Assembly (NCBI RefSeq): GCF_002260525.1
Contig: NZ_MRYI01000007.1
Span: 124,001 to 188,000 of the forward strand
Direction of reading: 5' to 3'
Source: Hahella sp. CCB-MM4
GTDB taxonomy: Bacteria > Pseudomonadota > Gammaproteobacteria > Pseudomonadales > Oleiphilaceae
Length of the DNA stretch: 64,000 bases
Both the position numbers and the translations under genes were made by a program. Position 1 is the stretch's first letter, and every line of letters begins with the position of its first letter. The notes beneath the pieces are model-generated. The model was not told the origin of the DNA. It worked only from the letters and a program-made list of their open reading frames with translations, and ran no database searches. Shown piece by piece: positions 9,114-33,799 of the stretch.

Positions 9114-9881
9114 ATGTTGGAAACTGAAATCACAATGAAAGAACCTGCTACGGCGACGGTAATGACAGTCGACAGGCTGAGGTCAGCCGGAGCTTTTATT
9201 TCAGAAGAATGGTTTTTCAGTGCCCATAATATGGAAAACGTTAAAGTACACATGTGCTTGTTTTCGCCGGACAGCTATGACGATAGCCTTTTCCAAGCGT
9301 TTGGGATTGAATCCCCGGAACAGATCTTCAGTGCGGTAAGCAAGAGAAGGATGGAATATCTGGCCGGCCGCTATTCAGCCAGGAAGGCTCTCAGGGAATA
9401 CTCGGCAGGGGACGGCCAGGTGGGAATTGGACCTGCCCGCTCTCCTGTCTTTCCCGCTCCATTTAAAGGTTCCATATCCCATAGTCGAAATATGGCCTGT
9501 AGTGCAGTCACTCAATCCCCCGGCATCAAAGGTTTGGGGATCGATGTAGAACACACCATAGATGGCACACAGATTATCGAAATTGGCGAGAGTGTCGTCA
9601 GCGATGATGAAGCCCGACTTCTGATAAACACCTCATCCGCCTATGCCCAGCTGTTTACGGCCGTATTTTCCGCGAAGGAAAGCATATTTAAAGCCCTTTA
9701 CCCTCGGGTTGGCTACTATTTCGGTTTTGAATATGCTGCGCTGAGACATCTGGAGCCGGATAACAACATTTTGCTGTTTGAACTCACCAGGGCACTTTCA
9801 GATGAGTTTCCAAAAGGAAGAGTGATTTCAACCAGATTCCATATCCTGGGCGATAAGGTCTTCACTCTGGCGGTTGTCTAA
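9114..9881 (+). CDS. Sfp/EntD-type 4'-phosphopantetheinyl transferase
   Basis: The 255-residue product has the ordered PPTase motifs: RRMEYLAGRYSARKAL at 79-93, GSISHS with His123, the Mg2+-binding GIDVEH with Asp144 and Glu146, and FSAKESIFKALYP with Lys188-Glu189. It moves phosphopantetheine from CoA onto the serine of carrier domains, so it is the likely activator of the ACP in the PKS at 33.8 kb and of any carrier proteins beyond the left edge. The conserved body starts only near residue 40, so the true start may be downstream of the ATG at 9114. It is the last gene of the left biosynthetic arm. Confidence 0.9.
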   Translation: MLETEITMKEPATATVMTVDRLRSAGAFISEEWFFSAHNMENVKVHMCLFSPDSYDDSLFQAFGIESPEQIFSAVSKRRMEYLAGRYSARKALREYSAGDGQVGIGPARSPVFPAPFKGSISHSRNMACSAVTQSPGIKGLGIDVEHTIDGTQIIEIGESVVSDDEARLLINTSSAYAQLFTAVFSAKESIFKALYPRVGYYFGFEYAALRHLEPDNNILLFELTRALSDEFPKGRVISTRFHILGDKVFTLAVV

Positions 9882-11644: not shown

Positions 11645-11675
11645 AAAAAAAGAGCTGTATATCAGCTCTTTTTTT
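11645..11675 (+). terminator. Rho-independent terminator
   Basis: A 13-bp perfect inverted repeat (AAAAAAAGAGCTG, loop TATAT, CAGCTCTTTTTTT) lies 50 bp after the peptidase-like gene. The A and T runs on the two arms make it usable in both directions. Confidence 0.9.
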
Positions 11676-12553: not shown

Positions 12554-13162
12554 ATGAGCGACAAGTTAAGTGACACCGAAGCAAAAGCATTTGCGGATGT
12601 TAACCAACGGTTGGGCATGGGGGCCAATGAAACTACCTTCTGTCAGGACCATATCATGTCAAAAGGCAGTGGTCCTGTGCATATGTCTTCCGATCCTCTG
12701 GCCTCTCACATCCCCCCCAAAATCATACCGGTGGCCTCCATTGCCGATATGAACAAGTTGGTGGGAATTCCCGATACAAACGATGACTCTCATGTGGAAT
12801 ACCCAGAGCCGGCCCGGCAGGAACACCTCAACCTGCTGAAGTCCGCCAATTCCACCGATGAGTTTCATCGTTCGGTCACTCCAGAAATGCATGAAAATAT
12901 CCGGAAGGCAGCCACTGCCTATGTGCTCGGAAATTCCAGCAAGGTTAAAGATTACGAGCCGCTGATTAATGCCCGTATGTTCCCAGGCAAAGTGGCGGCT
13001 TTTGTCGCAGACGATATCGTCATCACAGCCGATAACCCTCTGATCATCAAGCCCGGAGACCCTCAGGTTCATAACTACGGCACCATTACCGTTAAGCCTG
13101 GCGGCTACATTCAGGTTTCCGAAAACGCCACCATTAACTGCCAGCAATTCATAATGGAGTAG
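12554..13162 (+). CDS. Unknown 202-residue protein opening the giant-protein operon
   Basis: AGGAG at the right distance precedes the ATG. Residues 1-150 are hydrophilic and mixed alpha/coil. Residues 150-202 are a run of short beta strands (DDIVITADNPLIIKPG, YGTITVKPGGYIQV, NATINCQQFIM) typical of a small beta-roll or a beta-helix cap. No signal peptide and no family I recognise. It is followed after three bases by the first collagen-like gene, so the two are probably made together, and the beta-roll may be an assembly or anchoring module (inference). Confidence 0.6.
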   Translation: MSDKLSDTEAKAFADVNQRLGMGANETTFCQDHIMSKGSGPVHMSSDPLASHIPPKIIPVASIADMNKLVGIPDTNDDSHVEYPEPARQEHLNLLKSANSTDEFHRSVTPEMHENIRKAATAYVLGNSSKVKDYEPLINARMFPGKVAAFVADDIVITADNPLIIKPGDPQVHNYGTITVKPGGYIQVSENATINCQQFIME

Positions 13163-13165
13163 GCC

Positions 13166-13807
13166 ATGACAGATACAAAAGTAATCCAGGTGATTGTCGC
13201 TGATTACGACACCCCGGCTACAGCCGGGCAAGATGGCGGAACCGGTAGTCAGGGGCCTCAGGGGAGCCCGGCAGAGACCCACTACGATTCAGGTGACTGC
13301 AAAACAAAATGTGATACGAATCCAACCAATGGCGGTCAGGGAGGTGTCGGTGGCGAAGGCCGGCCAGGCTCTACCGGTGCGAAGGGCAGATCCGGTCCTG
13401 TCAGCATATTCAATCTGATGACTATCGAAGGAAATTTATCCATCGAAGTCTCTGGTGGAGATGGCCAGGATGGAGGTAAAGGAGGCGCTGGTGGGCCAGG
13501 AGGCCCCGGTGGAAGCGCTGGCAACAATGCCTCTCCCTGCACGGCTGCTTCCAGCGGACCACAGGGTCCCGGTGGTAGAGGCGGCGACGGGGGCAATGCC
13601 GGGGACGGTGGCTCCGGACCCAATGTGACCGTGTACTACCAGCACGTATCCGGTGATATCACCCAGAGCCCGAGCACTGGTAAACCCGGACAACCCGGTC
13701 AGGGTGGTCCTGGAGGACAAGGCAGTCCGGCAGGCATGGGAGGAAGCAACGGAAGAACAGGTAATCCGGGTACCGCGCCGACCATCACCGTTCAGCAAAT
13801 CGGATAG
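13166..13807 (+). CDS. Glycine-rich collagen-like protein A
   Basis: The 213-residue product begins with a short beta strand (VIQVIVADYDTP) and then shows two blocks of Gly-x-x/Gly-Gly-x repeats (about 15-85 and 100-210), interrupted by non-repetitive segments such as ISIFNLMTIEGNLSIEVSGG and a VTVYYQHVSGDI strand. It has two cysteine pairs or loops (DCKTKC and a later single Cys). Glycine in every second or third position suggests collagen-like or polyglycine-II-type packing. No signal peptide or sortase motif. Its neighbour at 13822 has the same architecture. Confidence 0.8.
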   Translation: MTDTKVIQVIVADYDTPATAGQDGGTGSQGPQGSPAETHYDSGDCKTKCDTNPTNGGQGGVGGEGRPGSTGAKGRSGPVSIFNLMTIEGNLSIEVSGGDGQDGGKGGAGGPGGPGGSAGNNASPCTAASSGPQGPGGRGGDGGNAGDGGSGPNVTVYYQHVSGDITQSPSTGKPGQPGQGGPGGQGSPAGMGGSNGRTGNPGTAPTITVQQIG

Positions 13808-13821
13808 GAGGCAGGTGAACC

Positions 13822-14562
13822 ATGACGGAAACTACATTACCTACCATCAGAATCACCGCGACAGAAGGCGGCAATGGTGCCGCCGGGCTGGCAGGCGTTG
13901 ACGGACAAAACAGCGCCGCCGCCGGTACCGGTCAGGATGGGCAGAACGGCAAGTCACACTGCGGTTGTACCTGTGCCAAGAATGGAACCAATGGCGCCAA
14001 TGCCGTCAGTGCCGGAGGCAACGGAGGAAATGGAACCGGCGGGGGGAACTGCCCCATGTTCATTCTGACCGTTGGCCAATTCACCTTTAGCGAGCCGGCC
14101 CAGGTGCTGAGAATTGTAAGTCAGGGCGGCACCGGCGGTAATGGCGGTGCAGGTGGTATCGGGGGCAAGGGTGCTCCTGGGGGCAATGCCGGATCTAACG
14201 CCGGAAGCTGTGTCAGTGATGGCAAGTGTGATCCTGCCAAAGGCGGCCAGGGTGGCAATGGGACTGACGGCGGCAGAGGTGGCGATGGCGGTATCGGCGG
14301 TAATGGCGGTGACATCACTGTTTATTACGTTGATGAAAAACACATTGGTCAGGTTTCCAGTCTGAGCTCGCCCGGCAAAGGAGGAGCGCCTGGACCAGGT
14401 GGAAACGGTGGAGCAGGTGGGGCCGGCGGTAAAAACGAAACGCCACCGGGAGGCGAACCCTCCAATGCCTTCCCTGGCAATTCCGGAATAAACCCGGGTA
14501 GTGGCAGGGCTGGAACCAACGGTGAGGCTGGTCAGACCAAATTTATTCCAAAAGACCAGTAA
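13822..14562 (+). CDS. Glycine-rich collagen-like protein B
   Basis: A 246-residue paralogue of the preceding gene, 14 bp downstream with its own AGGAGG. It has an initial strand (LPTIRITATEG), Gly-rich blocks, a cysteine cluster SHCGCTCAKNG, a hydrophobic strand pair (CPMFILTVGQFTF and AQVLRIVSQGG), a second cysteine loop (SCVSDGKC) and a DITVYYVDEKHIGQV strand that matches VTVYYQHVSGDI of protein A. The shared order of modules shows the pair arose by duplication. Formation of a fibre or scaffold is inferred from composition only. Confidence 0.8.
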   Translation: MTETTLPTIRITATEGGNGAAGLAGVDGQNSAAAGTGQDGQNGKSHCGCTCAKNGTNGANAVSAGGNGGNGTGGGNCPMFILTVGQFTFSEPAQVLRIVSQGGTGGNGGAGGIGGKGAPGGNAGSNAGSCVSDGKCDPAKGGQGGNGTDGGRGGDGGIGGNGGDITVYYVDEKHIGQVSSLSSPGKGGAPGPGGNGGAGGAGGKNETPPGGEPSNAFPGNSGINPGSGRAGTNGEAGQTKFIPKDQ

Positions 14563-14730
14563 ATCCAAAACCAATAGGGATTAATAGAAGCCAGGGAAGG
14601 CAAGCGTTATACGCTGTGGACCACGTCTGAAAAATGGGTGAATGAGAGATAGTCGAGTAGACAATAGAAGAGGGTGGCGTCAGTTGTTATAGACACTCAG
14701 CACGGCATACAACTTTTCAGGGAGAGAAAG

Positions 14731-16269
14731 ATGTTAGAAGATTCTAATGCTACAAGAATTGTCCTGGAGCAACTCGCCTCCCAGGCAATCCTGCCGGATA
14801 TGATAGAGAACAGTCCGAGCCTTCCACCGGGATGGGTACTGTTAAAAACCTTCAGCGCGCGATTCAGTCCCCCTTCTGTGATAGTGCAGGGATTTATCGC
14901 CAAAGGCCCCATCAATTCCAACGGCGATATTGCCGCGGCGTTATCTTTGGGCATTACCTGGGAGGATTTTCTCGGAACCAGCATCGCCCCATTTGATCCT
15001 ACCGCTCAGGCGGAACTGCCTGCTCAAGTGACCGGAACCGGCAATGTCGGCAAGGTACTCAATCTCTTCGCCAGCGCCTATAACAATGTTCGTGGCAATA
15101 TCTGGGAAGTCGTTACTGACTATTTAAGTGATCTGCCTTTATATATCTGTGGCATGAGCCTGGGTGGGCCTATTGCTCAAATTGCCGCTCTGGACCTGCG
15201 TCCAGGCAACACTGGTCCGAGTAAAGGGCAGAAGTCCCCTGACACCCAGCCTGCCGGCTACGTATTTTCTACGGCTAACTACGGCAATACAGAGTTCGCC
15301 ACTTATTTCAATAACACGGTGTCCGATCAGTTCAACTTCAGAGCCTATAAGTCCACGGAGGCGGTGGATCTCTTTCCCACTGAACCATCTGATTCACTCT
15401 ATGCTGCAGCTGGAGAAGTGGTACAGCTGAATATTTCCATTCCGGAATATGATGTTCCCTGGCTTGAGCGCAGCGACGTATTTTACCTTGAGGCATTGGG
15501 CGGCACCCCGGTTCAGCAACCACCCCAGCCAGGATTCATTTCAAATCCGCCTTCAGATTTTTCACAGACCAGAGCCTATGCATTTTCACAGCTTGTCGCT
15601 GCTGCCTACGCTTTTGCACAGCACCCCGGCAGTGTGGTGAATACCTCTCCCTACAATCTGGAAGCGATCATTGAGAGTAATGGTGCTCCGTTTGCCTACA
15701 TATTTACCAGCGTCACTGACGTGGTGGTCGCTGTTCGTGGCACCACCACCGGGCTGGAATTTCTGTCTATGGAAGCCAACTCCAGTCTGGTCGCCACTGA
15801 CTTTAACCCCGATAACCAGGCTCAGGTGCATAAGGGAGCCTATTCGGTCTATACCGGGCCGGTCTCCTCAACTGATAGCACTTCATTTTCCGACAAGCTT
15901 CTGTCGACTGTCAGTTCGATGATGAGCGGCAGAAAACTGTGGCTGACAGGACATGGTTTCGGAGGCGCCTTAGCCAATATTGCAGCGGCTGACTATGCCA
16001 TGAATCCCGGCAAAGGGCTCGAAGTCAGTGGAGTGTATACGTTTGGTTCCAACGCGGTTGCCAACAGTATCTTCAAGAGTGACTTTGACCAGTCACTGAG
16101 CGGAAAGAGTTTTCAGATACTGAGGCTGAAAGACAGGATTCCCACGTCTATCGGCGTGTTTGGAACGCTGTTTGTGGTAGGTGATCAACTGGTTTTAAAC
16201 GGACAGTTGGCGGTGGATGAGTCAACCTATCATTCATTGGATGGCTATATACGGTTAACCGCTCCCTAG
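14731..16269 (+). CDS. Tandem lipase-fold (class 3 lipase-like) protein with split catalytic residues
   Basis: The 512-residue protein contains two alpha/beta-hydrolase halves. The first has the elbow GMSLGG with Ser143 and an acid at EAVD213, but where a lipase would carry its histidine there is RSDVFYLEAL without one. The second has GHGFGG, so the nucleophile serine is replaced by Gly409, while the acid Asp468 (LKDRIP) and His501 (YHSLDGY) are kept. It is thus unclear whether it is catalytic, pseudo-enzymatic or uses a composite site. ATG 14731 has GGAG six bases upstream and is preferred over GTG 14674. No signal peptide. It precedes the 3160-residue gene by 58 bp. Confidence 0.75.
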   Translation: MLEDSNATRIVLEQLASQAILPDMIENSPSLPPGWVLLKTFSARFSPPSVIVQGFIAKGPINSNGDIAAALSLGITWEDFLGTSIAPFDPTAQAELPAQVTGTGNVGKVLNLFASAYNNVRGNIWEVVTDYLSDLPLYICGMSLGGPIAQIAALDLRPGNTGPSKGQKSPDTQPAGYVFSTANYGNTEFATYFNNTVSDQFNFRAYKSTEAVDLFPTEPSDSLYAAAGEVVQLNISIPEYDVPWLERSDVFYLEALGGTPVQQPPQPGFISNPPSDFSQTRAYAFSQLVAAAYAFAQHPGSVVNTSPYNLEAIIESNGAPFAYIFTSVTDVVVAVRGTTTGLEFLSMEANSSLVATDFNPDNQAQVHKGAYSVYTGPVSSTDSTSFSDKLLSTVSSMMSGRKLWLTGHGFGGALANIAAADYAMNPGKGLEVSGVYTFGSNAVANSIFKSDFDQSLSGKSFQILRLKDRIPTSIGVFGTLFVVGDQLVLNGQLAVDESTYHSLDGYIRLTAP

Positions 16270-16327
16270 AGCAATGCCGGAACGCACCAAACCACATTAG
16301 CAACCAACATCATAGTGGAACATTCCC

Positions 16328-19300
16328 ATGACTATTATCGAAAAAACTGTTCCTGCAAGGGCAGAAGAGAGCGTTCCTGGTAGTAGTGGTATTACGTTTT
16401 CAGGGTTGGATCCCATCCTGGGCAGTTTAGGGGTGTTAGGCAATCTGCTGGTATCTGATGGTCAGGATACCTACACATTGAATAACGATTGGTTTACAGA
16501 CCCTATCACCAGCATGAAAGAGGGGTTCAGCCGCAATCCTGAACAGTTTCAGGCACTGCTCTCCCAGATATTGGGCGATGTGGAAGGAAATGCGTTAGGG
16601 GCACCGGTCAGGGATCCCACAGTTCTTGGAACCTGGTATCCCATAAAAAACGGGGATGTGGAAACCGGTCTGTATCTTGTCAGTTATAACAAGGCAGGTG
16701 ACACGGTCCTGGGATTCGGTGCCTTGCACGAATGGAAAGTGCCCCAGGCGCCATCGGAAGCCCTGCTTCAGGTGACCGCCTTTGTCCTGGTGCCCTTCGT
16801 AAAAGTGGGGAGTGGCAGCTTCGACCTGACGTTCGACTCGGTCGGCTATCCTATTTTGATGGGGGCAGCGGTGGACGGGGCTGCCACCACTCCTTTGGTG
16901 GATATTAACGGTGTCCAGTTCAATGGAGTAAAGGCCAGTGTCTCCATCGATTTTGCCGCCAGTAATCCGTTCGGTGTTTCACTTGAGGTGCTGGCATTAC
17001 AATTGCCCGGCGATGCCCAGCCATCCAATCGTTCCATCGCTGACCTCGAAGCCATATCGGGTGTGCAGCTGACCAATACCGCCAGCGCCCTGTTCGTTGG
17101 CGCATTGACCAAAACCTTCCCGGATCAGGAAGACAGGATACGGTACTTTGCGCCGCTATTTGGTCTTTCCTCCATGGTGCCGGGCTCGAGCGTCAGCCTG
17201 CCGATACTGGCCTGGTATGACTTGTTTGCCAATTCCAGCAATCCGGCAGAACCGTTCCAGAACTGGTTTACCGCTATCGGGTCGGATCCCCAGCTCCTGA
17301 GCACCTGGTTGTCCTGCCTGGGAGGCTTTATCGGCGACAAATCCGTGTCTGTGACGGGAACCGGAGATCGCAATACGCCTTTTGCCGTCGCTATTCTCTC
17401 CTTTGAATCTATCGGCACTTTGCAGGTGACTACCGCTTCGGTGGTTGAGGAAAATCACGGACGGTTTTTCTATCCGGGGTTAGCGTTTGCCGGCAAATCC
17501 ATTGCGCTTGGCACCTCGGATGCCGTCTTTATCCCGAGCGCCAATCTCGAACTGGGGGCGTTTGCCCTCAGCCAGCAGGGAATATCCGCGTCACCGGAAC
17601 TGAACTTCCTGTTTAAGTTTGCCTTGCAGAACAAAACCGACGGCGACCCGTTGGCAACGTTTCAGGAGTCTGGTGACAGCTACAGCGTCGGTTCGCTTGA
17701 AGGGGGCCTGACCCTGGACCTGAGTGGCAAGCCGGTTCCACATTTCTATCTTAACAACGTGGATATACCTTCAAGCAGCTTCCAGACATTGGATCTGCTG
17801 TCGCCGACACAACTGGCGGATGCCGGGGCCGCTCTTTTAAGTGATGGACTGAAGACGCTTCTGGGTGTCAGTTCTGACAACCCCAATGCGCTATCAAACA
17901 ATATTGCCGCTGTATTGGGGCTGATAGCACCGGGAAGTGCAGGGGACAACTGGCCGGAGGATCTGGTTCCACCATTCTCCGCGAGCGGGATGGAGAACTC
18001 CATTCTCAACCCTATCAAGGCACTGGCGGATTACTATCTGAGTATTCTGGAATACTCAGGCAAGGTCGCGAATCAATCTGCTTTTTACTACATGGTGGAG
18101 AGCTTTGCCCTGTTGCTGGAGAAAGATACCGGCTCCACCAGTATTACGGTCACCGGTGACGGGACACCACAATCCCCCTGGCTGGCGGGAATTTCGATCA
18201 GTAATACGGCACTGCCCGCGTACGTCCAGTTTTTCCAGGAACCCATTGAGGGTGGCGGAAGCAGACTGAATCTCGGGGTGTCGATGATACCTGAGATTGT
18301 CGTCAGTACTGTTACCGTGAAACCTTCCCTGAATCTTTCCGTGGCCAGCATCGAGTTTCCTTCATCAGGCAATCTGTCTGCCACCTGGCTACCGATTGCC
18401 TCCGCGGCTCTGAGTCTGCCTAATCCCATACAGACGCCTGAGGTCGGTGGGTTGTCTGTCAGCATCGGGCCGTCCCAGCTGTCTGCGGCTTGGAGCCGCT
18501 TCAGCGGTTGGTCCTGGTCCATGTTTGTGGATGAGCCGGCGCTGGTCGTCAATGGAGATAAAATTTCTCTCGGGCAGAGTCTGAATTTTGATGACCAAAG
18601 CTCGCTTCAGGATCTGGTGACCACAGGGCAGGCGACCTTTGCCCCGTTCCTGGTGGCCGCCCTGGGAACATTCCTCATGCGGACAGAAACGCGGCCGGGT
18701 CTGTTCTTTACCGGTGCCATGGGATTGGTGCCGGATATCACAAGTTCCCCCATATTCCCTCAGGGACTGGCTTGGAGCGGTTTCGACCAATTTACCATTA
18801 CCAGTTTCAGCAATCCGTTTCCGGATCTGCGCAAGCAATTGGCCAGCGACTATGCCAGTCAGGCCAAAGCGCAGAGTATGTTATCTCTGCTTGCCTGGAC
18901 CATTGATACTTCCTTGACCAAGGCTCCTGACATCGGTGGAACCGGAACCTATAACGATCCTTATCCCATGCCGATTCCCTTCGGCTTTGATATCTACAGC
19001 TGGTTCACGCCACAGGATCAGGTGCTGGGGCTTGGGGTAGGGCGAGAGGATAACTTTCAGTACCAGACCACTGTCAGTGGTACCGACGTCAAATTCAAGT
19101 TTGATCTGCAAAGCCGGCTAAGCCTCATTGAATATTCGCTCGCCAAGGGCGCCCTGGATAATCTGAACAATCTGCCGGCCTTTAATTTCCTGGGGACTCT
19201 GTCCAACCCGGATGGAACACTATTGGTCGACCTTCCGGATAATCTCGGCAGTGTGGAAAAAGTGATTCTGGGGTGCAACTTATCGATCAGTTCTTCCGGA

Positions 19301-22300
19301 GGAATTACCTTTGTTCCGGTGGTCACATTATCCGGTGCGACACTGCCCGGACAGGCTAAGCAGGATATCACGCTGGAGACATACCAGAGCGACAGTTTTA
19401 CCTCAGCTCTGCAATCCAGTTTCCAGACATTGCTGAATGCTGCCGTCCAGGCTGCCGTGGTGCAGGTGAAAGATGTCGCCGGATTTACCACGGCTTACGA
19501 TCTGCTTTCAATTCTGGGCCTGACGTTAACCCGGAAGGCGGACAACGATCCCTACGGTATCAACAGTTCCGGATGGCAGGGGCTGCTTTCGGATCCGAAC
19601 AGCTACATTCGCAATCAGTTGATTTCCCTACTGGAAAACCAGGAATCCCGCACGGAATTTTTCAACTTCCTACAGCAGGTATTCCACATCACCATACCCA
19701 GCTTCCCGACCTCCTTCCTGGAGCTCATGGCGGGGCTGGAAATCTGTGGCCCTGCGGATCAAGGGTATCCGCTGCAACCGCTGGCTGTTCTGCAGATTCT
19801 GTCTAATCCGGTTGACGGTCTGAAGACCCGCTTTGATAACCTGTTCTCCAATGCACAAACACTTGCCACTCTGACGGGAGAATTGACTCGAAACATACCC
19901 GAAGCCAAGTACGGCAGGGTCTCGTTCTCGTCCAATACCAACGGCGTTATTTCTGTGCAGGTTCTCCCCGCCGATGCGTTCGAACTGGGGAGCTTTCTCC
20001 AGGTGAGCGGCGGAATCCAGCTGGATTTGGTCAACCGCAAGCTTACCGGTGACATATCCGCCTATAACCCGACTTTGCAACTGTCGTTGGTAGACAGTCT
20101 GACGCTCGATCTTGCGACAGGCTCAGTAGAAGTGTCGGTCGGCAGTGAAATTGTCTGGGGCAATGACTCCAAGCCTGCCGCACAGCCTCTGACGTTACTG
20201 CCGTTTAACAGTGATTCATTCTTGAATCAGGTGGCTGACCTGGCGCCGGTTTACAGTTTAAATATTCTGCTGAATGCGGGGATTGAAGAACGGCTTCTGA
20301 AGCCTTATCCGCTGATACAGAAACTGTTTGTCGGATTTGGGCTGGCAGTAACTGCCGAAGGACAAAACGGCTACCAGATGGCCGCCATTCTGGGGATTCT
20401 CCGGGATCCACTGGGCTGGTTGCTTTCGGATGCGGTATTGGGTACTAACGGCCGATTTGACGTGGCCAAATTCGTGGAACTGCTGGGGAATCTCCCGCAG
20501 GTTGCATCGTCTACCGGAATCACCTTGACTCCGACGCCGAGTCAGGGGCTGGACATCAGTGGCTTGCCCTACAACTTCGGTATCAGCCTGACCGGGGCCG
20601 ATGGCATGGCCAGCCTGGGCTTTACCACTCAGGATATTTCCATTGCCGATAACCTAGGCAAACTCGATAAGTTAAATCTCAATATCGGCATCGGCCCCAC
20701 CTATCAGCCCGCGTTTTCAGGGCAGATGGAAATTTCAGCACCCGAGTTACCGGCGCCCTTCTTTACCACGGTCGGATACAACCGGGGCTTCCTGCTGAAA
20801 CTGTCCCAGGGAACTGCTTCCGCCCCCACAGGTTTAGGTGTACAGCTGTTCCCATTCCAGGGATGGGGAACTGTGGCGGGAGAGGCGGCCAGTCTCGCTG
20901 CTGCAACGGTTATCCAGCAAATCACCCCGAAACTTCTGGATGCTTTGGAAAACTCAGGGGCTCAGGCTTTTGTATCAAGGATGCGGACCTTTGCGACCAG
21001 TGTGGATCTGGAGGCTTTGGTTAACGAAATCCTGGCCACATTAACGCCGGAAAACTTCAGTAAATACAGTGCGGATCAATTGCTTCAAATGCTGTTGACG
21101 CAGGCATTTGACTGGCTCAAAGAACGTTTCTCCACAACGACAGCTCCTCAAACTGCCGACGCGGTCAAAACGTTGTTGTCCAATGTACTGCCGACTCAGA
21201 TCACGACCGAAGGTGGTCGGGTGGTGTTTAACCCCGGCGCGGATATTCCCATACAGGTTAAAGCGGGCCTGAATTCGGACGGTTATCTGGGACTGTGGAG
21301 CGACCTTAACGTACCGGAGTTGAAAATCGTCCAGGTGGATGTGGCGGAGACCGGTGTCGGCGTCAAAATCGACACTGGTGATATCCAGGTCAGCTTCGGT
21401 GTGCGCACCTTAATCCCGGTAGAGAGTCTGAACGGTCCGGCCTTGAGCCTGAATTATGTACAGGGCAGTGGCTTCGTCCTGGCATTCGATCCGTTGGCAG
21501 ACCCTTCGAATCCCTCACAGGCATCCTCGCTCAGCAGAGAATTACTACCGGTATTTTTCCCCGGCGAAGGCAGTCTTTCCACACGCCTGGAAGACTGGCT
21601 GCTGGATGTCATCAAAGATGTATTGCCCCGGTATATCTCTCTGCTGGTGCTGAATCAGAGCACGGTTCACCAGTGGCTTGAAACCCCGATTATCAATGAT
21701 GAAAAAGCGCCCACTCCAGTACTGATTTTTGAGGCGACATCGCTGGTCATCGTGGCTCCGGATACTAACCCCAAAGTGTATCTGCTCAATAGCTTTGATG
21801 CCCTGACGGCAATTACCCCCAAGAGCTTTTTTGGGAACTTCATCAAGACACTGATGGAGAACTCTTTAACGTTGCTGACCTTTGGGGCGAACAAGCAAGG
21901 CAAGATTACTATCGGGCCTCAGACCGGAACCCAGGATCACTATGGTATCCAGGTGGCCGCGCCGGATCTCACGCTTGCTTCAATCCCGAGTCTGGTGATT
22001 CAACTGGGGGCTTCGGATACCGCTTGGATAAGCGGTAGCGGAGGGCCGTCCGGCGATCCGGGTATCGGCTTCTATGTGCCTGTCACTGACAGCGGCGGCA
22101 ATGTTGAGGTGGATTTCACGTCGCTGAACATGGCGCTCTATAACGTTGGTTTCGACTATATCGGCACTAACGGTAAGCCTCTGGTGAATCTCAGCCGCTT
22201 CACCATGGATGCTGTGCAGCCCCGGGCATTGTTCAGTCTGAGTTTTGACAAGGGGTCACCAACACTGGATTTCGGTGCCGGTATCACCTTGAAGGATATT

Positions 22301-25810: not shown

Positions 25811-25814
25811 GCCA

Positions 25815-27353
25815 ATGAGCACAAAAGTCACTGTCGGAAGTGGCGCTATCGGCGCTGGTGAAATCAAATTTTACGATTCGATTCAACCGCCGCTGACTGC
25901 CGGGTCTTATACCCTGCAGGCCACTCAAACCATTCAGAATCTGCCTGGGCAGAAAGACGATCCAACTTACGTGGCAAGTCAGCAGTTAAGGGTGGACGGT
26001 CCACGTTTTACTCTGGACCCGTCACAGATCAGCTCAGTCTTTCCGCCGGCCAATCAATTGGGTAATTTTGATAACGATTTACCTCATATCGTTTTCAACA
26101 ATTTTGCTTTGCCCTGGTCCCGTGAAATCAATCCGCTATCTCAGGATATTAACCAGATCCCCTGGATGGGACTGCTGACGTTGTATCCGGATGATATGCC
26201 GTCAATGACCAACGTTAATCCGAACGTTTCGCCACCCCAGACCATCACTGTCTCCGAACTGATTCATCCATCCAACGCAAAAGTTCTGCCGCCGGATCTG
26301 GGAGATACCATTTACGAACCCGACAGTACCAAGGTGACCGTGGTGGATGTGAATCTGGCGTTCTTCCAGGCCATTGCTCCGTCTCTGGATGAGTTGCCGT
26401 TTCTTGCCCATGGCAGACAGGTGAATACGGACGGGAAAGTCATGCTCGGCATGGATGCCGACGGCTGCTTTTCTCTGCTGGTAGGCAACCGTCTGCCAAT
26501 GGCCACGGACGACGGGATTACCAAGAACACGATCTATCTGGTTTCCTATGAAGGCCACCAGGATCATTTGCACGGAAGCACCATTTCCGGCGATTACAAT
26601 CAGATTCGGCTGGTGTTGCTGGGTTCCTGGGAGTTCAGTGCGGCCCCCGCCAGGGGCAGTTTCATACAACTGATGGAAGACCTTTGCGACAAAGGACGTG
26701 GAGGCGTCACCCTGTATCAAATGCCGAAGCAGCAGACCAATCTTCCTCTTACTCCGAATGTAACCGTGGATGAGGCCTTGGACATAGGCTATGTGGCCCT
26801 GCAAAACAACATGCGTGTTGGGGAGAACGCCACCTCCTGGTATCGCGGACCACTGGTTCCGGCGCCGACCAAAAGAGATTTTAGCTACGGCCCCTACATC
26901 TTCAGCGATCACGCGATGCAATACGATCCGGGTACGGGGATATTCAATCACGCCTATAGCGCTGCCTGGCAGATCGGCAGGCTGCTGGCACTGTCGGATG
27001 CGACCTTTGCCCAGCAGTTGTTCCAGTGGCGCATGGACTACATTACCGAGATTAACAACGACGCCAAAAACGAAGAAATTCAATTGAAAGCTTCAGCCAT
27101 GATGGCACCGGAAGCCAACGGTGCCGCCGTCAACATGGTCAGTGCCACCCAGAGCCTGATGGCGACCAAGCTTTCCAAAGTGAAGTGGCCGAAAGTCACC
27201 CCGCGTACCCAGACCACTTTGGGCGATCATCTTCCCGGCATCATGAATAGTGATGAGGTTTCTGCCATTCACCAGAGCGGCGAGGATCCCCTGATCGAAC
27301 TGTCCAGAAAACTGAAAGGTGGCAGCGGAAAAGTAAAAGGAGCGAAAGCATGA
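25815..27353 (+). CDS. Unknown 512-residue protein, giant-protein operon
   Basis: The frame begins four bases after the giant gene and overlaps the next gene by four bases (ATGA), so it is translationally coupled on both sides. The N-terminal third is strand-rich (VTVGSGAIGAGEIKF, AGSYTLQATQTIQNLPG), the middle has an LLVGNRLPMA / TIYLVSYEGHQDHL core, and the C-terminal 150 residues are helical with a lysine-rich tail. I do not recognise a family with a known role. Proteins with similar 'value-plus-name' strand motifs occur beside other giant proteins of this kind, but that is memory, not a search. Confidence 0.65.
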   Translation: MSTKVTVGSGAIGAGEIKFYDSIQPPLTAGSYTLQATQTIQNLPGQKDDPTYVASQQLRVDGPRFTLDPSQISSVFPPANQLGNFDNDLPHIVFNNFALPWSREINPLSQDINQIPWMGLLTLYPDDMPSMTNVNPNVSPPQTITVSELIHPSNAKVLPPDLGDTIYEPDSTKVTVVDVNLAFFQAIAPSLDELPFLAHGRQVNTDGKVMLGMDADGCFSLLVGNRLPMATDDGITKNTIYLVSYEGHQDHLHGSTISGDYNQIRLVLLGSWEFSAAPARGSFIQLMEDLCDKGRGGVTLYQMPKQQTNLPLTPNVTVDEALDIGYVALQNNMRVGENATSWYRGPLVPAPTKRDFSYGPYIFSDHAMQYDPGTGIFNHAYSAAWQIGRLLALSDATFAQQLFQWRMDYITEINNDAKNEEIQLKASAMMAPEANGAAVNMVSATQSLMATKLSKVKWPKVTPRTQTTLGDHLPGIMNSDEVSAIHQSGEDPLIELSRKLKGGSGKVKGAKA

Positions 27354-28282
27354 AATCCTGGATGAATCGTAGCTCTCTGCATGAATCCATTGTCAATCGA
27401 ATGGTGGCGGCTTCCCAAACGCCGGATGAAAAACCGGTACTGACTGACAGTATTGCCCAGTGGTTGGCACAGCTGACATTGCTCTACGGCGTACCGACCT
27501 CCTACCTGACGCCGGATGTCCGAATGCTGCCTAACGAGTCCATGCGTTTTTTCTTCCTGGATCGTAACTGGCTCGACCGGATGGTAGACGGTGCTTTGAG
27601 CGTCGGTGTGCTCTCCACCCAGACCAGTCTGTTCAATGAAGTTTTCTTCGAGGACATCTATCAACAGATAGATCAGGCCCAGCAGAAGCTGAGAGCCCAG
27701 TTGAAAAACCAGGAACCGGTCAGTAGTGGCACTGTCGGTGGACCTATTACCGGTCTATTGTTTCGCTCCCAGGTCGTCTCGGGTTGGCCCGGGCTGGAAG
27801 TATACGCGTCTGCGCAAGGGGCTGAGTTGCCCATATTGCGAATGGATCGTCTGGCGCCGAGTGTGCTGCTTTGCCTCTTCGACGGAGTGCCGGATGACGT
27901 GGATTTCGTTGAGCCGAGCGAAGCACTCCATTTCGGTATCACCAGAGAAAAAGGTGCCTCGGACTTTAAGGTCAGCCTGCGCGGTCTGGGGCTTCCCACC
28001 GTAGAGGAATATCCACCTGGCGAGCAGATTCCGGATCCTCAAACCCCTGGGGCGTTTTTGACCGCCCCGGGGAATCTGCGTACCAACAACTCTCAACCCG
28101 GCGTAGTCGATATTCAGGGGCTGGTGTCATCGATCGAATCGAATATGCCTCAGGGCGCTCTGGATAACGGGAAAATCGAACCGGGCGGATTTGCGGTGCA
28201 ATTGGTTCAGGGGGCCGGCAAACAGAGTTACAAAATCAGTAACGGTACGCCTTATCCCAAATGCGCTTATAGCGGGAACTAG
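27350..28282 (+). CDS. Unknown 310-residue protein, giant-protein operon
   Basis: AAGGAG precedes the ATG, which overlaps the upstream stop. The sequence has a helical N-terminus, then RMLPNESMRFFFLDRNWLDR and DGALSVG, a glutamine-rich helix, and a strand block (GWPGLEVYA, RMDRLAPSVLLCLFDGVPDDVDFVEPSEALHFGI). The phrase 'LPxESxRFFxxDxNWxxxxxDGAxSxG' feels conserved across bacteria, but I know no function for it. No signal peptide or membrane segment. The tight coupling with the 512-residue gene suggests a stoichiometric partner. Confidence 0.65.
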   Translation: MKSWMNRSSLHESIVNRMVAASQTPDEKPVLTDSIAQWLAQLTLLYGVPTSYLTPDVRMLPNESMRFFFLDRNWLDRMVDGALSVGVLSTQTSLFNEVFFEDIYQQIDQAQQKLRAQLKNQEPVSSGTVGGPITGLLFRSQVVSGWPGLEVYASAQGAELPILRMDRLAPSVLLCLFDGVPDDVDFVEPSEALHFGITREKGASDFKVSLRGLGLPTVEEYPPGEQIPDPQTPGAFLTAPGNLRTNNSQPGVVDIQGLVSSIESNMPQGALDNGKIEPGGFAVQLVQGAGKQSYKISNGTPYPKCAYSGN

Positions 28283-28333
28283 CCGTGGGCTTCAAATGGA
28301 TCAACCCATCAACGACTAAGAGTGGAAAGTAAC

Positions 28334-31300
28334 ATGGCCGCACAGACAAATCTCATGCCGGTATGGCCCGGCCCCCGTGTCCTGGTTCCTATGGCGACGG
28401 ATATTCTGCTGGTGGGCAAACCGGATCAGAACACCACTTATGCCAGCACCAAGAACAGCTACCTTGACCTGTATCTGAGCCCTGGAGCAGTATTGCCTTC
28501 GCCGTTTACCACGTCGACGCTGGGGGTGGGAGCACACATCATGTGGACGCTGCCTTTCAGCCTGCGCAGCGGTTCACAAAGCGCCCAGGAAGAGCAGGTG
28601 GGATTCAGGCTGGTGCCCAACCGCTGGCTGGTAACGCGCTTCAAATATTCATCCGGTAGCAATGGAACCATTACGCCGCCACAGGTGACGGCAACGGTTC
28701 TGCAAAGCGATACACTCTTCGATATTTCCAGCAACCCGTCTGCCTATAACCAATATCCTTACCCACAGGACGCCAGCTTTCCGCTGCGTGGGATAGGGGT
28801 GGCACAGGAACTGGCTACATGGCAGGGCGTGGCCGGACCGGACAAGCCGTTCCTGCAGGCCGTCGGACCCGGAACCTTGTCGTGGTCGGTGGCTTACGAC
28901 AATATCAAAAATGTATTTTCCCTCTATGACGACTTTGGTCAGGAAGCCGCTGACAGCGCCATATATACCTATTCCATTATCGGCTGGTACGCCAATCCGG
29001 ACGATGATGTTCTGAGCTCCCTTCCGGTGACCGACAGTGCAGATTGGAAAGCCGCACTGGAACAGGGTTTTGCCTGGTCCCCCGGCCCCTCGGTGGGAGA
29101 CGTGGACAATGGAGTGGATGCCTGGAAACAATGGCAGCAGTCGCATGGATTGCAGGGCACGTTCAACCCGGATTCCATTCAACTACCTGAGCAGGAAAAA
29201 GCCGCCATTATCGCCTGGCATAACTGGCAGCAGGCCAATGGCGTGACCGCCGAACAGCCGGACCTGCCAACCAAACTGTTGTGTCACTCCATGGTGGCTA
29301 CCGTCAATTGGCAGGGTAACGGCCATGCTTATGGCACCGGCGTGCCGGGCGACTATGCGGACTTTCCTGCGGTGGCCATCGGCAATACTTCGACAGAAGC
29401 TATTTCGGTGTATATGGCCAATAAAGTGGTAGAGGAACTGGGGGAAGATCCTTCCTTTATTCCCGAAATAGAGCGGGCACTTTCAGCCTTCCAGAAAGAT
29501 CTCCTGTTCGATCTTGCCAACAACGAAGTGAACAAAGTTGAAACACGGCTGCATAACGACGAATTCGAACTCGGTTACGGTGGCCAGCAATGGGTTGTGG
29601 TTCGGCCGGAAAGCACTACCGAAGACATACAGGCCACCGGAGGCCAGCAGACGATTCCGCTGAATGCCACCGATACCCAGACACTGATTGCGCTGAACAA
29701 GCTGCAAAGCGAAGTCAACACACTCTTTGGTTTGATTTCCAGTCAGCGTGGCGAACTCTTCCTGCTGTCGGTGAAAAAGCTTCAGTTGAACCGTCATTCC
29801 GATCCGGACATCGTGACCAAGGTCAACGACAGTATCAGCGCCATTACAGGGGCTTTGACTGCCAACCTGACGTCCTATGATCAGAAGACCACTCAGGTGG
29901 ATAGTGACGCCAAGTCTTTTCAGGACACCTTGGGCGACCAGTTCGTTCTCAAGCCGGTCGACCTGACACCTAACGCAGCACCCAATGATCCTGTGGTGAT
30001 GCTGGCCGGCGGGAAGCTTGATGCGAAGCTGAACGCTCCAGGACAGTACAAGGAAGATCAGTTGTTGTTCGTCCGCTTTACCGGGCAGACGGTCACGGGC
30101 ATTGATATTACCTATACCCCGGAAGGAGGCAGTGCCGGCCCCAAAGAAACGATTGGCGCTGCAGAACTGTTGGCTAGCGGAAATGTCGTTCTGCCCACCT
30201 GGAACGCCATTCCCAAAGAGGTCATGGACCTCTGGATTGAATTGTTGCTGCTGGATACCAGTAATGCCGGTTTGATTGCCAGCCTCTATTTTCAAAAGGC
30301 AGGCATCACTCCCACCGATGACGATCTCACGGCATTGACCGCCCAGATTCAGAAGCAGCAAACCGCTCCTTGGAACAGCGCAGATCAGCTGGGTGTGCAT
30401 CCCCAGGCATTGGGCGTTGTGGCTGGCATAAACGGCCTGCTGCCCTCAGAGGAATCCGTAGCCTTCAGAACCCAGCAGCCCTGGACGCCAATTTATCTAG
30501 ACTGGAAAATCTCATGGTTCCCGTCTTCCATGGATTCGGCGGATGCGCTCAACGGCTGGACATTGGGAGATATCGACTTCTCCTACACCGGCACTACCAT
30601 TCCGACACCGCCGGATAAATTGATCTATGAAGGGCGGACCACGATCAATACCAAGACGGCCCAGAATATCCAACAGAAATTCGCCAGTTTCGAAAGCGAT
30701 CCGAACTATCAGAACTTACCGGATTTCATTATTTCGAACCTGACCAAGGTGGCCAACGATATCAAGGAGATTGATATCGTGACCCAGTCCATGGGCGGAC
30801 TGGGTAAGCAATTGGCGACAGAAATCACCTCCATGAACACTTTCACCGAGGAGTACGCCGACCTGCTGGGCAATACCAGTAGCCTGTTCCGTCCTGTGGT
30901 GGGATCCGAGACAGAATCCGGCCCGTTCTTCCCCATTAGGTCCGGACACTTCCAGGTGATTGATCTATGGATGGTGGATTCTTTCGGCCAGATCTGGCGG
31001 GGCAAGGACCCAAGCTTCGGCGCAGAGTCGCCCATATTGAATATCTATTGGTCTGAAGAGCTGACGACACCTCCCAGCATCGACAAGGCTGAAACCTATG
31101 GTCAGTTGCCGCCCAGGCTGGAACAACCGGTGAGGGCCAATCCCAGATTTCTGCAGGCGGATAATGATGCCATATTCAGTAATTCCTCGGATCGGACCAG
31201 TCCCATATGCGGGTGGGTCATGGCCAATCATCTGGATAACTCGCTGATGGTGTTTGATGCTGAGGGAAATAACCTGGGCGCTATCATCAAAATTCAGCGG

Positions 31301-32299
31301 CAAATGACGGGGAGCGAAACCAGTGCGGAGTTTTCCATTCGTTGGGATGCGGTGCCCGGTAGTAATACACCTTTAGGTGCTCCACCGAATCTGCCCAATG
31401 AGCATTTGCAGAGCTTTATCCTGAATTTATTGGCGACCGCTTCACAAGGCTCGTCGGCCTATGACGAGTTGATGTCCGCCATTGATGCAACATTGTGGTC
31501 CATGGGGAATTTCCCGCTACAGGACGGCAATCTTTCGATATTGCTGGGAAGGCCTTTAGCGGTGGTCAGGGCCGAGCTGAATGTGCCTGTCGCCGGAACG
31601 CCCATATACAACCAGAGCTGGCCGGATACCGGCAGGTACTATGAAAGTAATGGGGAGTACCTTCCTACCAATCCTCCCTACATGTCCGTGCCATTTCCTT
31701 TCAGGGTGGGGGATAGTCTGTCTCAGCAAAACGGGGTGATGGGGTATTTCCAAGCTGACCAATACGACACTTTCTATGCGGTATACGGGATTCAAAACCA
31801 GACTGCGGCCATGAAGAGCCTGTTGACAGGGATAAGCGGCAGCCGGGCGGACAGCAGTGCCATGCTGAAGGCGATCACCACTCCCGCCGGCTTTACCAGT
31901 GGCTATGTGAAAGAGAATCATCTGATCTCTATCGCGCCGGGAGATGAACCCGTCAAGCTGACCGTGCTGATCGATCCTTCCGGGGACATGCCAGTGATTT
32001 CAGGCGGGTTGCCGACCCGGGAACTGACCTTGCCGACAGGACCCGTCGGCAACGCCATGAAGAATTTTACGGCGACTTTCCGTACCGGTCCGCTGTTGCT
32101 GGATCCGGACAAAATCAGGATGCCTACGCCGGCCGAAGTCAGAGGCAACTGGGGATGGGCTGCGCGGAAAGATGTCACTCAGTGGAACCCGAATGTCCAG
32201 GTGACCAACTACACACCGGTGGCGACCCTGGAAAGTACTATTCCAACGCTGATAGAAGGCTGGCTGACACTGTCCGGTGCCGAGTCTGAGGAAATCTGA
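28334..32299 (+). CDS. Unknown 1321-residue protein, giant-protein operon
   Basis: A GTG at 28322 is possible, but GGAAAG lies four bases before ATG 28334, which I prefer. The N-terminal 120 residues contain WTLPFSLRSGSQ and FRLVPNRWLVTRF. Then comes a segment YSIIGWYANPDDD and two Trp-rich repeats (AWKQWQQSHGLQG and AWHNWQQANGVTA, about 260 and 300). A long helical, probably coiled-coil stretch covers about 455-545, with strand-rich sequence to the end. No catalytic motif, signal peptide or transmembrane segment. Size, architecture and operon position suggest a structural subunit; function unknown. Confidence 0.65.
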   Translation: MAAQTNLMPVWPGPRVLVPMATDILLVGKPDQNTTYASTKNSYLDLYLSPGAVLPSPFTTSTLGVGAHIMWTLPFSLRSGSQSAQEEQVGFRLVPNRWLVTRFKYSSGSNGTITPPQVTATVLQSDTLFDISSNPSAYNQYPYPQDASFPLRGIGVAQELATWQGVAGPDKPFLQAVGPGTLSWSVAYDNIKNVFSLYDDFGQEAADSAIYTYSIIGWYANPDDDVLSSLPVTDSADWKAALEQGFAWSPGPSVGDVDNGVDAWKQWQQSHGLQGTFNPDSIQLPEQEKAAIIAWHNWQQANGVTAEQPDLPTKLLCHSMVATVNWQGNGHAYGTGVPGDYADFPAVAIGNTSTEAISVYMANKVVEELGEDPSFIPEIERALSAFQKDLLFDLANNEVNKVETRLHNDEFELGYGGQQWVVVRPESTTEDIQATGGQQTIPLNATDTQTLIALNKLQSEVNTLFGLISSQRGELFLLSVKKLQLNRHSDPDIVTKVNDSISAITGALTANLTSYDQKTTQVDSDAKSFQDTLGDQFVLKPVDLTPNAAPNDPVVMLAGGKLDAKLNAPGQYKEDQLLFVRFTGQTVTGIDITYTPEGGSAGPKETIGAAELLASGNVVLPTWNAIPKEVMDLWIELLLLDTSNAGLIASLYFQKAGITPTDDDLTALTAQIQKQQTAPWNSADQLGVHPQALGVVAGINGLLPSEESVAFRTQQPWTPIYLDWKISWFPSSMDSADALNGWTLGDIDFSYTGTTIPTPPDKLIYEGRTTINTKTAQNIQQKFASFESDPNYQNLPDFIISNLTKVANDIKEIDIVTQSMGGLGKQLATEITSMNTFTEEYADLLGNTSSLFRPVVGSETESGPFFPIRSGHFQVIDLWMVDSFGQIWRGKDPSFGAESPILNIYWSEELTTPPSIDKAETYGQLPPRLEQPVRANPRFLQADNDAIFSNSSDRTSPICGWVMANHLDNSLMVFDAEGNNLGAIIKIQRQMTGSETSAEFSIRWDAVPGSNTPLGAPPNLPNEHLQSFILNLLATASQGSSAYDELMSAIDATLWSMGNFPLQDGNLSILLGRPLAVVRAELNVPVAGTPIYNQSWPDTGRYYESNGEYLPTNPPYMSVPFPFRVGDSLSQQNGVMGYFQADQYDTFYAVYGIQNQTAAMKSLLTGISGSRADSSAMLKAITTPAGFTSGYVKENHLISIAPGDEPVKLTVLIDPSGDMPVISGGLPTRELTLPTGPVGNAMKNFTATFRTGPLLLDPDKIRMPTPAEVRGNWGWAARKDVTQWNPNVQVTNYTPVATLESTIPTLIEGWLTLSGAESEEI

Positions 32300-32362
32300 C
32301 CACGAATGAATTCAATGCCGGAAGCGACCCGGCAGAAAAATAATAGCAAGGGAGTCATGCCA

Positions 32363-33799
32363 ATGAGTAACAGTTCAAGCACCGTTTTTGACTATAGCTT
32401 CGCGCCACCCCAGGTATTCGTTGCGACGACCACAGACCTGACCCTGACTGTATCTAATCCCATTGACGGCCCGACAATACAATGGCAGGGCGGGCCGAAC
32501 GGAGATGAAATCGATGTGACCTTTCCAACCGGAAGCGACATCAGTGACCTGATGAATCAACTCCCGGTACAGACCAGGGTGGTACAACCCCAGGGATTCA
32601 GCTGCGTACGCTCAGGTGACTATTTCGCCATTAAATCAGCTGTCGGAACCACGATCGAGCCGGGCGATAAAATTGTGGTGGTGTTTGAAAGTGCGGTCAT
32701 TAACGGTAAAACCGGCAGCGCCACTGTCGGCATCCAGGAATACATTGGTACCGCCAACAACCGTACCTCGGCCGCGATTTCAAAAATTGCCCAGGAGCTG
32801 GCCGTTATTGCCTGGTTAGATCCATATGTGGTGGGCTTATACGAGCAAGCTAACCTGAACTGGCAATCAGCGGCGGGCATCGGTGTCAAAATCTTCGGAT
32901 TCTCCGGCGGTACCGGGGAAAAGGATTTTCCTGTCAGCGGAGATCCCCCTTATCCGGGCACCACCAAGGTGAATGTGCCTTCCACCACAGAATCCCAGAG
33001 AACCTATACCTTACAGGTCTATACCGGCGATAACCGTCACGCCCAGCAGGATGTGACGCTGACGCAACATTCTCCGTTGATTACGTCATTTACCGGCGAC
33101 AAGACCTCACCCCTTAAAGTGAATTCAAGCGTGACCCTGACCTGGCACAGCTTGTTTGGAGCCGGAACAACCCTGAGTTCCAATTCCGGACTGGACCGCA
33201 ATAATCCCCAGTCGCCGTTAGACGTAAATCCCGGTCAGGAATTGTTGAAGACCTATTTCAACAACTACAGCAATTTACCTGAAACCGTCACCTATACATT
33301 GGCCGTGAACGGATTTCAGGAGCCCGCCTATGCCGATGTGTCGTTCACCCTGGCTCCCGTAGGTTTGGTCTACTTCAAATACACGACGAATAACGAAGGC
33401 CAGCTATCCGGCGTGAAAGCGGTACTTGATCCGGAGCAGTGGACTGCCCAGAAAATCGAATTTCCCAGCAGCGATCTCGCGATCCTGACTTTCTACCAGC
33501 CCGGTGGAAAAGCGGAAAAATATTATCTGGGAAGCGGCGACACGGAGCATCCACAGATTCAGTACTTCAATGCCCAAAGTAAAGGGGACAACATGTTTGA
33601 ATTCAGCTGGGTCACCGCCAACCTGGATGCCTCCAAGGGCATGGTTCTGCTACCGGGAAATATTCAGATTACCGGTAACGAGGTCGCTTCCGGCAGCAAG
33701 TCGCTGACGGTCACCAGCACCGCTGAATATACCCTCAGCGGGGTGGGAACCAATGGTCAATCGATTGTCAGCAAACTGGTCGTACAAGCTGGCTCCTGA
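32363..33799 (+). CDS. Unknown Ig-like/beta-sandwich protein closing the operon
   Basis: Three in-frame ATGs precede the body; AAGGGAG (32348-32354) is best spaced for ATG 32363, giving 478 residues. The product is almost all beta: an N-terminal domain with FVATTTDLTLTVSNP and PGDKIVVVFESAVING, a Ser/Gly/Pro linker, an Ig-like domain near 240-340 (LITSFTGDK, SVTLTWHSLFGAG), and a C-terminal repeat of short strands ending in LVVQAGS. This is the pattern of an adhesion or scaffold protein, but without an export signal. About 50 bp separate it from the PKS gene. Confidence 0.6.
   Translation: MSNSSSTVFDYSFAPPQVFVATTTDLTLTVSNPIDGPTIQWQGGPNGDEIDVTFPTGSDISDLMNQLPVQTRVVQPQGFSCVRSGDYFAIKSAVGTTIEPGDKIVVVFESAVINGKTGSATVGIQEYIGTANNRTSAAISKIAQELAVIAWLDPYVVGLYEQANLNWQSAAGIGVKIFGFSGGTGEKDFPVSGDPPYPGTTKVNVPSTTESQRTYTLQVYTGDNRHAQQDVTLTQHSPLITSFTGDKTSPLKVNSSVTLTWHSLFGAGTTLSSNSGLDRNNPQSPLDVNPGQELLKTYFNNYSNLPETVTYTLAVNGFQEPAYADVSFTLAPVGLVYFKYTTNNEGQLSGVKAVLDPEQWTAQKIEFPSSDLAILTFYQPGGKAEKYYLGSGDTEHPQIQYFNAQSKGDNMFEFSWVTANLDASKGMVLLPGNIQITGNEVASGSKSLTVTSTAEYTLSGVGTNGQSIVSKLVVQAGS

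Follow-up and report, generated by a model that had tools for sequence, protein, structure and literature searches.

The Pfam entry PF20248 (DUF6603) describes a 502-position domain of unknown function, and a literature search for DUF6603 found no paper; among the papers listed by further searches, none dealt with the system described here, which is encoded at positions 12554-41888 (+ strand) of a 64,000-nucleotide stretch of a Hahella sp. CCB-MM4 contig (NZ_MRYI01000007.1, positions 124,001 to 188,000; hereafter the window). The biosynthetic clusters of Hahella have been listed (PMC9030710), in an article that uses neither the term fatty acyl-AMP nor the term hypothetical. The longest protein of the locus, P0005 (3160 amino acids, aa), is a clear DUF6603 member, and the Pfam entry as seen does not include the partner families F6 to F9, the repeats and the polyketide synthase (PKS) cassette that accompany the domain here. 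The synthase, P0010, likewise possesses the fatty acyl-AMP ligase (FAAL), ketosynthase (KS), acyltransferase (AT), ketoreductase (KR), acyl carrier protein (ACP), and thioesterase (TE) domains of FAAL-type PKSs, but differs from them in being embedded in an operon of giant proteins, in having no ACP between FAAL and KS, and in showing no sulfotransferase domain in the Pfam result; presumably it also resembles olefin synthases and other lipid PKSs. The hydroxylase P0011 shares the Pfam family PF05118 with the OlsC and LpxO acyl 2-hydroxylases and with AspH, although it falls far below both the OlsC and the LpxO equivalog cut-offs. Finally, ApoB100, one of the large lipid-transfer proteins, is the top Foldseek match of a structural model of DUF6603, with which it shares long sheets. 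With template modelling (TM) scores of only 0.11 and 0.04 and no credible sequence match, this likeness is not evidence of membership, and we rejected ApoB as a true homologue of DUF6603 as unproven despite an E-value of 3.8e-5.

DUF6603 and three families, F6, F7, and F8, constitute a co-inherited gene set in bacteria, mostly accompanied by a fifth gene, F9. In the window these genes are consecutive on the + strand: P0005 (16328-25810), P0006 (F6, 512 aa, 25815-27353), P0007 (F7, 310 aa, 27350-28282), P0008 (F8, 1325 aa, 28322-32299), and P0009 (F9, 497 aa, Ig-like by eye only, 32306-33799). An initial annotation of this DNA gave 1321 and 478 aa for the last two, which become 1325 and 497 aa when counted from the first possible start, the choice of start being the source of such small differences. 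A scan of genome contigs with a DUF6603 alignment retrieved at least 453 relatives, of which the best 80 were kept; being ranked by similarity to one alignment, these 80 loci (numbered with the prefix L) are a biased sample. Using profiles built from other genomes and the window, we found F6 in 76, F7 in 74, and F8 in 73 of the 80 loci, with all three in 70 (the broken reading frames of L052 counted as found, on its pieces), and relatives of F9 in 62 when two methods were combined. The misses of the core families lie mostly near contig ends, and where at least 9 kb was available downstream of the DUF6603 domain (66 loci), F6 and F7 were present in 66/66 and F8 in 64/66. The two exceptions for F8 are L056, where it was not found, and L119, which has an F9 gene at its upstream edge and whose F8 may fall outside the stretch. 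Elsewhere, L110 has no F6, F7, or F8 in the 3.7 kb downstream of DUF6603, and L095 has F8 while F6 and F7 were not detected in 5 kb, even with broader profiles. F8 lies downstream of DUF6603 in 65 loci and upstream in 8, and F6 and F7 form a single open reading frame (ORF) in 24. Paenibacillus sp. UNC499MF (L109) provides a shorter version, with DUF6603, fused F6-F7, and F8.

An unbiased test, consisting of one even draw of 398 genomes from the window's phylum in which F8 was sought with a single sequence, gave the same picture: DUF6603, F6, and F8 were each present in 9 of the 398 genomes, the identical 9, and the other 389 had no match to any of them. The distance matrices of DUF6603, F6, F7, and F8 were also correlated (0.71-0.94 over 61-73 loci, values inflated by shared ancestry), as compared with at most 0.17 in 500 shuffles of names. 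The recurrence of the partner families beside DUF6603, including the 478-residue one, which the initial annotation had proposed as the way to tell a system from a chance cluster, is thus borne out. It is well supported that they represent one real conserved system, for which the literature searches made returned no described role.

The distribution of this system is broad. DUF6603 loci span twelve groups at phylum rank, and in ten of these groups one locus or more carries F6, F7, and F8 together: Pseudomonadota, Bacteroidota, Acidobacteriota, Cyanobacteriota, Bacillota, Actinomycetota, Fibrobacterota, Verrucomicrobiota, Chloroflexota, and Thermodesulfobacteriota, several of them represented by metagenome bins. 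DUF6603 presumably occurs in fungi as well. The closest named relative of the window is Hahella ganghwensis (96% identity over the DUF6603 domain). Among 38 close relatives, the window's own genome included, DUF6603 occurs in 3; since 5 of the 6 other genomes of the same genus are without it, its gain or loss appears patchy. In the tree, the window and H. ganghwensis group together within a starred set of 13 rows that includes 10 Bacteroidota (the L047 row being an artefact of sequence trimming), which suggests transfer between phyla. Plasmids of Streptomyces, Embleya, and Paenibacillus bear relatives, and a haloarchaeal plasmid (L120, 10966-30808) encodes DUF6603, an adjoining protein that matches F6 weakly, and a 3124-aa decapeptide-repeat protein. 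In Marinomonas rhodophyticola (L052, 2309-19917), the frames of the lipase, DUF6603, F6, F7, and F8 are broken, through either decay or draft errors, and are open in its close relative L053.

Other versions of the locus have different genes upstream of DUF6603, homologous to each other in G190 and G261. Those lying directly upstream in G190 (L024, 3437-11138) encode an M64 peptidase, a 243-aa unknown, a FabA-like protein, a ketoacyl synthase, and a protein that weakly matches metallo-beta-lactamase, so that enzymes apparently of fatty-acid type are encountered again in a different subtype. Four loci (L091, L104, L105, and L107) share a conserved upstream family of 487-524 aa with HxHxDH-like and HHGS motifs, which we take to be of metallo-beta-lactamase type; a Pfam scan of one of them, L107, gave no match. 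Cluster 0 of the recurrent flanking families was obtained by single linkage and may chain, and the greedy ORF lists of flanking genes include antisense ORFs in high-GC loci.

The DUF6603 domain occupies residues 2059-2572 of P0005 (E 2.4e-137, 459 bits, above the curated cut-off of 27 bits), confirming what had been called a DUF6603-like protein. The N-terminal 1200 residues match themselves at offsets of ~250-260, 520, and 780, and therefore contain repeats ~260 residues apart. We modelled 974 residues of a Lachnospiraceae DUF6603 protein from 70 sequences, with a mean predicted local distance difference test (pLDDT) of 77.5; the core (~240-750) lies mostly at 83-98, with one block of ten at 72, and has ~25 strands in a long, antiparallel-looking run. 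Along the strands, residues point alternately to a hydrophobic and to a polar side (mean difference between the faces 2.61 versus 1.25 +/- 0.18 in shuffles), and the domain is accordingly predicted by this model to be a long amphipathic beta-meander. Six Foldseek matches of the model had E <= 0.001, namely ApoB100 (twice), PapC (twice), FimD, and a chain of the Mtr complex, with TM-scores of 0.04-0.18, and the weak matches include ApoB100, ushers, porins, and LptD. The F8 model, which was built from 60 sequences and covers 1200 residues of a Taibaiella protein, is confident (mean pLDDT 86.9, predicted TM-score 0.83) and displays a mixed alpha/beta architecture with a pair of long helices. Foldseek revealed no known fold for it, with no match at E <= 0.001 in PDB (best 0.25) or BFVD (best 0.098). 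Sequence profile searches of PDB likewise gave no credible relative for F8 (best E 0.0032), DUF6603 (0.19), F9 (0.25), F6 (0.43), or F7 (none up to E 1); the matches of F8 were mostly helical or coiled-coil proteins aligned to its helical region, and we read them as composition.

The core belongs to a run of nine + strand ORFs at 12554-33799, which the initial annotation had correctly recognized as tightly packed; the successive gaps are 3, 14, 111, 58, 4, -4, 39, and 6 bp. P0005 is preceded by P0001 (12554-13162, a 202-aa family with hidden Markov model (HMM) matches in 16 of the 80 loci), two Gly-rich proteins, P0002 (13166-13807, 28.6% Gly) and P0003 (13822-14562, 30.5% Gly), which have Gly-rich ORFs in other loci, for P0002 at the same place, and the lipase-fold protein P0004 (14674-16269, 531 aa, HMM matches in 24 of 80). 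Parapedobacter (L041) and a Flavobacteriales bin (L042) are among the relatives that keep the first nine genes in the same order; in five others (L045-L048 and L065) a single ORF of 396-463 aa with 18-19% Gly starts with the P0001 match and includes a Gly-rich part. Neither Pfam (E 0.1) nor NCBIfam matched P0006-P0009. Across P0001-P0009, NCBIfam gave two weak matches only, both far below their cut-offs: P0002 with a collagen-like adhesin (E 0.00093, 18 bits, cut-off 325) and P0004 with MenH (E 0.057). The reported absence of membrane segments holds, no 19-residue window of P0001-P0009 exceeding 1.6 on the Kyte-Doolittle scale, and that of signal peptides agrees with N termini that are polar as judged by eye, no signal-peptide program having been used. 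Tandem Repeats Finder (TRF) detected no array within 12554-33799, confirming that the nine coding frames are devoid of short tandem repeats; the PKS gene contains two. Cys is scarce in P0005 (8/3160) and P0008 (2/1325) as compared with the PKS (41/2416).

Pfam Lipase_3 matches P0004 in two stretches, as expected from its description as a tandem lipase-fold protein (class 3). In an alignment of 21 sequences read by eye (L052, with two short ORFs, and L096 being left out), only 3 (the window, L040, and L053) keep the nucleophilic Ser of the first half, and only 2 (L042 and L044) the one of the second half, where the window has GHGFG. The C-terminal His column (YHSL in the window) has His in 21/21. 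Such sequences fit a role of this family in binding instead of cutting. The two Gly-rich proteins had been called collagen-like, and their Gly residues do recur every third position (lag 3 counts of 43 versus 17.2 expected and 47 versus 22.6 expected); the name is only partly right, as G-x-y runs reach at most 7 triplets (with a pattern requiring a non-Gly second residue), long uninterrupted runs are lacking, and Pfam detects no collagen at E 0.1. The domains of F9 vary: among 52 members, Pfam recognizes Kelch in 9, LamG in 6, lactonase-type propellers in 5, and Peptidase_S74 in 2. A cyanobacterial F9 protein combines LamG and Peptidase_S74 and matches tail-fibre families in PHROGs, one from Chloroflexi combines LamG with weak Gp10_C and Collar matches below their cut-offs, and the window's own F9 has no match in Pfam or PHROGs. 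From this variety of domains, the F9 position looks like one that holds exchangeable recognition modules.

The nine-gene run was recognized as an operon, but its extent was incomplete: it continues, after gaps of 49 and 3 bp, through the PKS gene (P0010, 33849-41099, 2416 aa) and the hydroxylase gene (P0011, 41103-41888, 261 aa). Pfam gives the domain order FAAL-KS-AT-KR-ACP-TE for P0010, and its first 567 residues match FAAL structures in PDB. Its sequence carries the motifs of a type I PKS module, namely KS Cys-His-His, AT Ser, KR GxGGxG and Tyr, ACP Ser, and TE Ser, at 757, 893, 955, 1242, 1799, 1950, 2108, and 2255. We sought both enzymes in 25 genomes of the window's clade, corresponding to 25 of its 31 fetched loci (all but L051, L052, L064, L068, L081, and L101). 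By comparison of coordinates, 18 of the 25 (L040-L050, L053-L055, L057, L058, L060, and L061) have a largely collinear PKS, of 35-87% identity, within ~8 kb of the locus and on the same contig; it is convergent in L053 and L054 and truncated by the contig end in L042. The hydroxylase adjoins it in 16 of the 25, the contig ending first in L042 and the best match lying on another contig in L055. Because of this PKS orthologue in 18 of 25 clade genomes, the PKS and the hydroxylase belong to the unit, making 12554-41888 an 11-gene cassette.

Ten flanks, from genomes picked among these 18, all contained the PKS and the hydroxylase (10/10). In Fulvivirga, Algoriphagus, Belliella, and Vibrio, the gene after the hydroxylase is kinase-like (Pfam APH), and one gammaproteobacterial bin has a distant relative of this gene (23-28% identity) in front of the PKS. 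Isolated similarities aside, the upstream neighbours are not shared in these flanks beyond two Chitinophaga genomes. Upstream of the cassette, the window encodes HpaB, MATE, DHQS II, a thioesterase, a stand-alone acyltransferase, a cupin, and a phosphopantetheinyl transferase (295-9881, + strand). None of HpaB, MATE, DHQS II, the cupin, and the transferase has a counterpart in the ten flanks, and the upstream genes show only generic thioesterase and acyltransferase similarity to the PKS. The operon had been placed between two arms of a biosynthetic cluster; judging from these comparisons, the downstream arm is part of the cassette, whereas the upstream genes are a separate cluster not linked to it; their phosphopantetheinyl transferase could serve the cassette's PKS. 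A terminator-like hairpin of 13 pairs (11645-11675, + strand, a consensus match only) lies in between, in a region where such matches are no more frequent than in shuffles (5 versus a mean of 4.8). Elsewhere in the window, a 21-bp tandem repeat (46067-46120) lies within the gene of a patatin-like protein (44987-47344), and three consecutive - strand genes (53182-57409), encoding a flavin oxidoreductase, an L-lysine epsilon-oxidase-like protein (LodA_N/LodA_C), and a PF12902 ferritin-like protein, are a possible quinoprotein oxidase cluster.

While the existence of the system is secure, we infer its mechanism. Because of their co-inheritance, the fusion of members, and the absence of catalytic families, the products of DUF6603, F6, F7, and F8 would assemble into one giant soluble particle. 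DUF6603 would supply long amphipathic beta-sheets, one face of which could hold acyl chains, and F9, here together with the Gly-rich proteins, would form exchangeable outer arms binding a surface or a ligand. A role in handling lipid is suggested, in each case indirectly, by the two enzymes P0010 and P0011, by a lipase fold that is mostly dead, and by the amphipathic sheet. In this clade, following established PKS logic, the PKS would activate a fatty acid, extend it by one malonyl unit, reduce the chain to a 3-hydroxyacyl product, and release it; the OlsC/LpxO-like P0011 may introduce one more hydroxyl. The lipase fold, for the most part catalytically dead, would bind this product without cutting it, and the lipid would be loaded on, or presented by, the particle. 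We favour this combination of a soluble giant particle with recognition arms that carries or presents a dedicated lipid in this clade, albeit tentatively and well short of conviction. Of the assemblies imagined in the initial annotation (a particle, a surface layer, or lipid handling), a lipid-linked particle is thereby the one to gain indirect support, whereas the surface layer has gained nothing specific.

Several observations weigh against a lipid-carrying particle. The PKS was not near the locus among the matches listed in 7 of the 25 clade genomes (L056, L059, L062, L063, L065, L066, and L067) and was seen in the fetched stretches of only 10 of all 80 loci, so that the core can do without lipid synthesis. 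P0011 scores only 113 bits with its best NCBIfam model, OlsC (NF052565, cut-off 450), and hence does not qualify by this model as an ornithine-lipid hydroxylase, and 82 bits with LpxO (cut-off 500); it matches AspH in PDB, and a metal-site pattern gave no match in it, such that P0011 may hydroxylate lipids, hydroxylate proteins, or be inactive. The first half of the window's lipase could still be active, the Ser being kept in the window and its sister. TM-scores of the ApoB and porin matches of DUF6603 are 0.04-0.28 in the 50 rows listed, and these matches probably show only a style of long antiparallel sheet and no shared fold. The low Cys content is a hint, and only a hint, of an extracellular site. 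F9 membership was assigned by single-linkage BLAST and may chain. Finally, a Paenibacillus sonchi plasmid (L020, 14042-23263) encodes F6-F7 and F8, the latter split in two ORFs, and DUF6603 was not found there; an IS630 transposase gene lies nearby, and the locus is possibly a decayed or displaced copy.

The recognition modules at the F9 position would also suit a particle for contact or injection-type antagonism, in which the core is the delivery body, F9 a receptor binder similar to a tail fibre, and the upstream enzyme-fold proteins (lipase, metallo-beta-lactamase, and M64 peptidase) the cargo. The cyanobacterial and Chloroflexi F9 domains, with the PHROGs tail-fibre matches of the former, speak for it, as do the M64 peptidase and the weak metallo-beta-lactamase match upstream of DUF6603 in G190 and a Paenibacillus polymyxa plasmid whose DUF6603 locus (L019, 1054-6660) lies downstream of Baseplate-V-like, DUF4280, and pentapeptide genes. 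Nevertheless, PHROGs gave no match at 0.01 for P0001-P0003 or P0005-P0009, and thus no homologous protein of a phage tail or contractile injection system was found among the window proteins scanned. In addition, viral contigs searched with the DUF6603 alignment and phage records searched with DUF6603 and F8 contained no relative, the recurrent flanking families scanned include no sheath, tube, or ATPase, and the putative lipase cargo has mostly lost its nucleophile; we consider antagonism unlikely, if still a serious candidate.

Giant beta-proteins, Gly-rich fibres, and Ig, Kelch, and LamG modules might alternatively build an extracellular matrix or surface layer, an idea with which the three-residue Gly periodicity, the F9 domain types, and the low Cys content agree. 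It is difficult to reconcile with polar N termini and no membrane-like segment, with the lack of any anchor or S-layer domain in the window proteins in Pfam, and with the presence of the same genes in Gram-negative, Gram-positive, and cyanobacterial hosts, and we judge it improbable, though worth keeping in mind. Rather more doubtful is an intracellular compartment or scaffold that organizes and stores the PKS-made lipid: the PKS and hydroxylase do lie within the cassette, 49 and 3 bp from their neighbours and conserved beside them, but 7/25 clade loci have the core and lack this PKS in its vicinity, and binding-type F9 arms would be left unexplained. As for a chance cluster of unrelated genes, we found nothing in its favour for the core, and only the genes upstream of the cassette resemble chance neighbours; the identical 9 of 398 genomes, the 66-locus survey, and the distance correlations have already refuted it, leaving it next to no probability.

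If the reading as a lipid-carrying particle is correct, DUF6603, F6, F7, F8, and F9 might represent an undescribed class of giant soluble lipid-carrying body in prokaryotes, with swappable arms, spread between phyla and bundled with a lipid synthase in one clade, and this body would be a bacterial analogue of a lipoprotein particle in function, not in ancestry, a joint proposal that we regard as speculative. At one copy each, the nine proteins encoded at 12554-33799 total ~770 kDa. The complete gene set occurs in ten bacterial phyla, and its largest partner, F8, is confidently modelled without a match in the fold libraries searched. With a defined minimal set of proteins for expression, a fixed operon for deletion, and a linked biosynthetic enzyme with a measurable product, the locus makes the function of DUF6603 directly testable.

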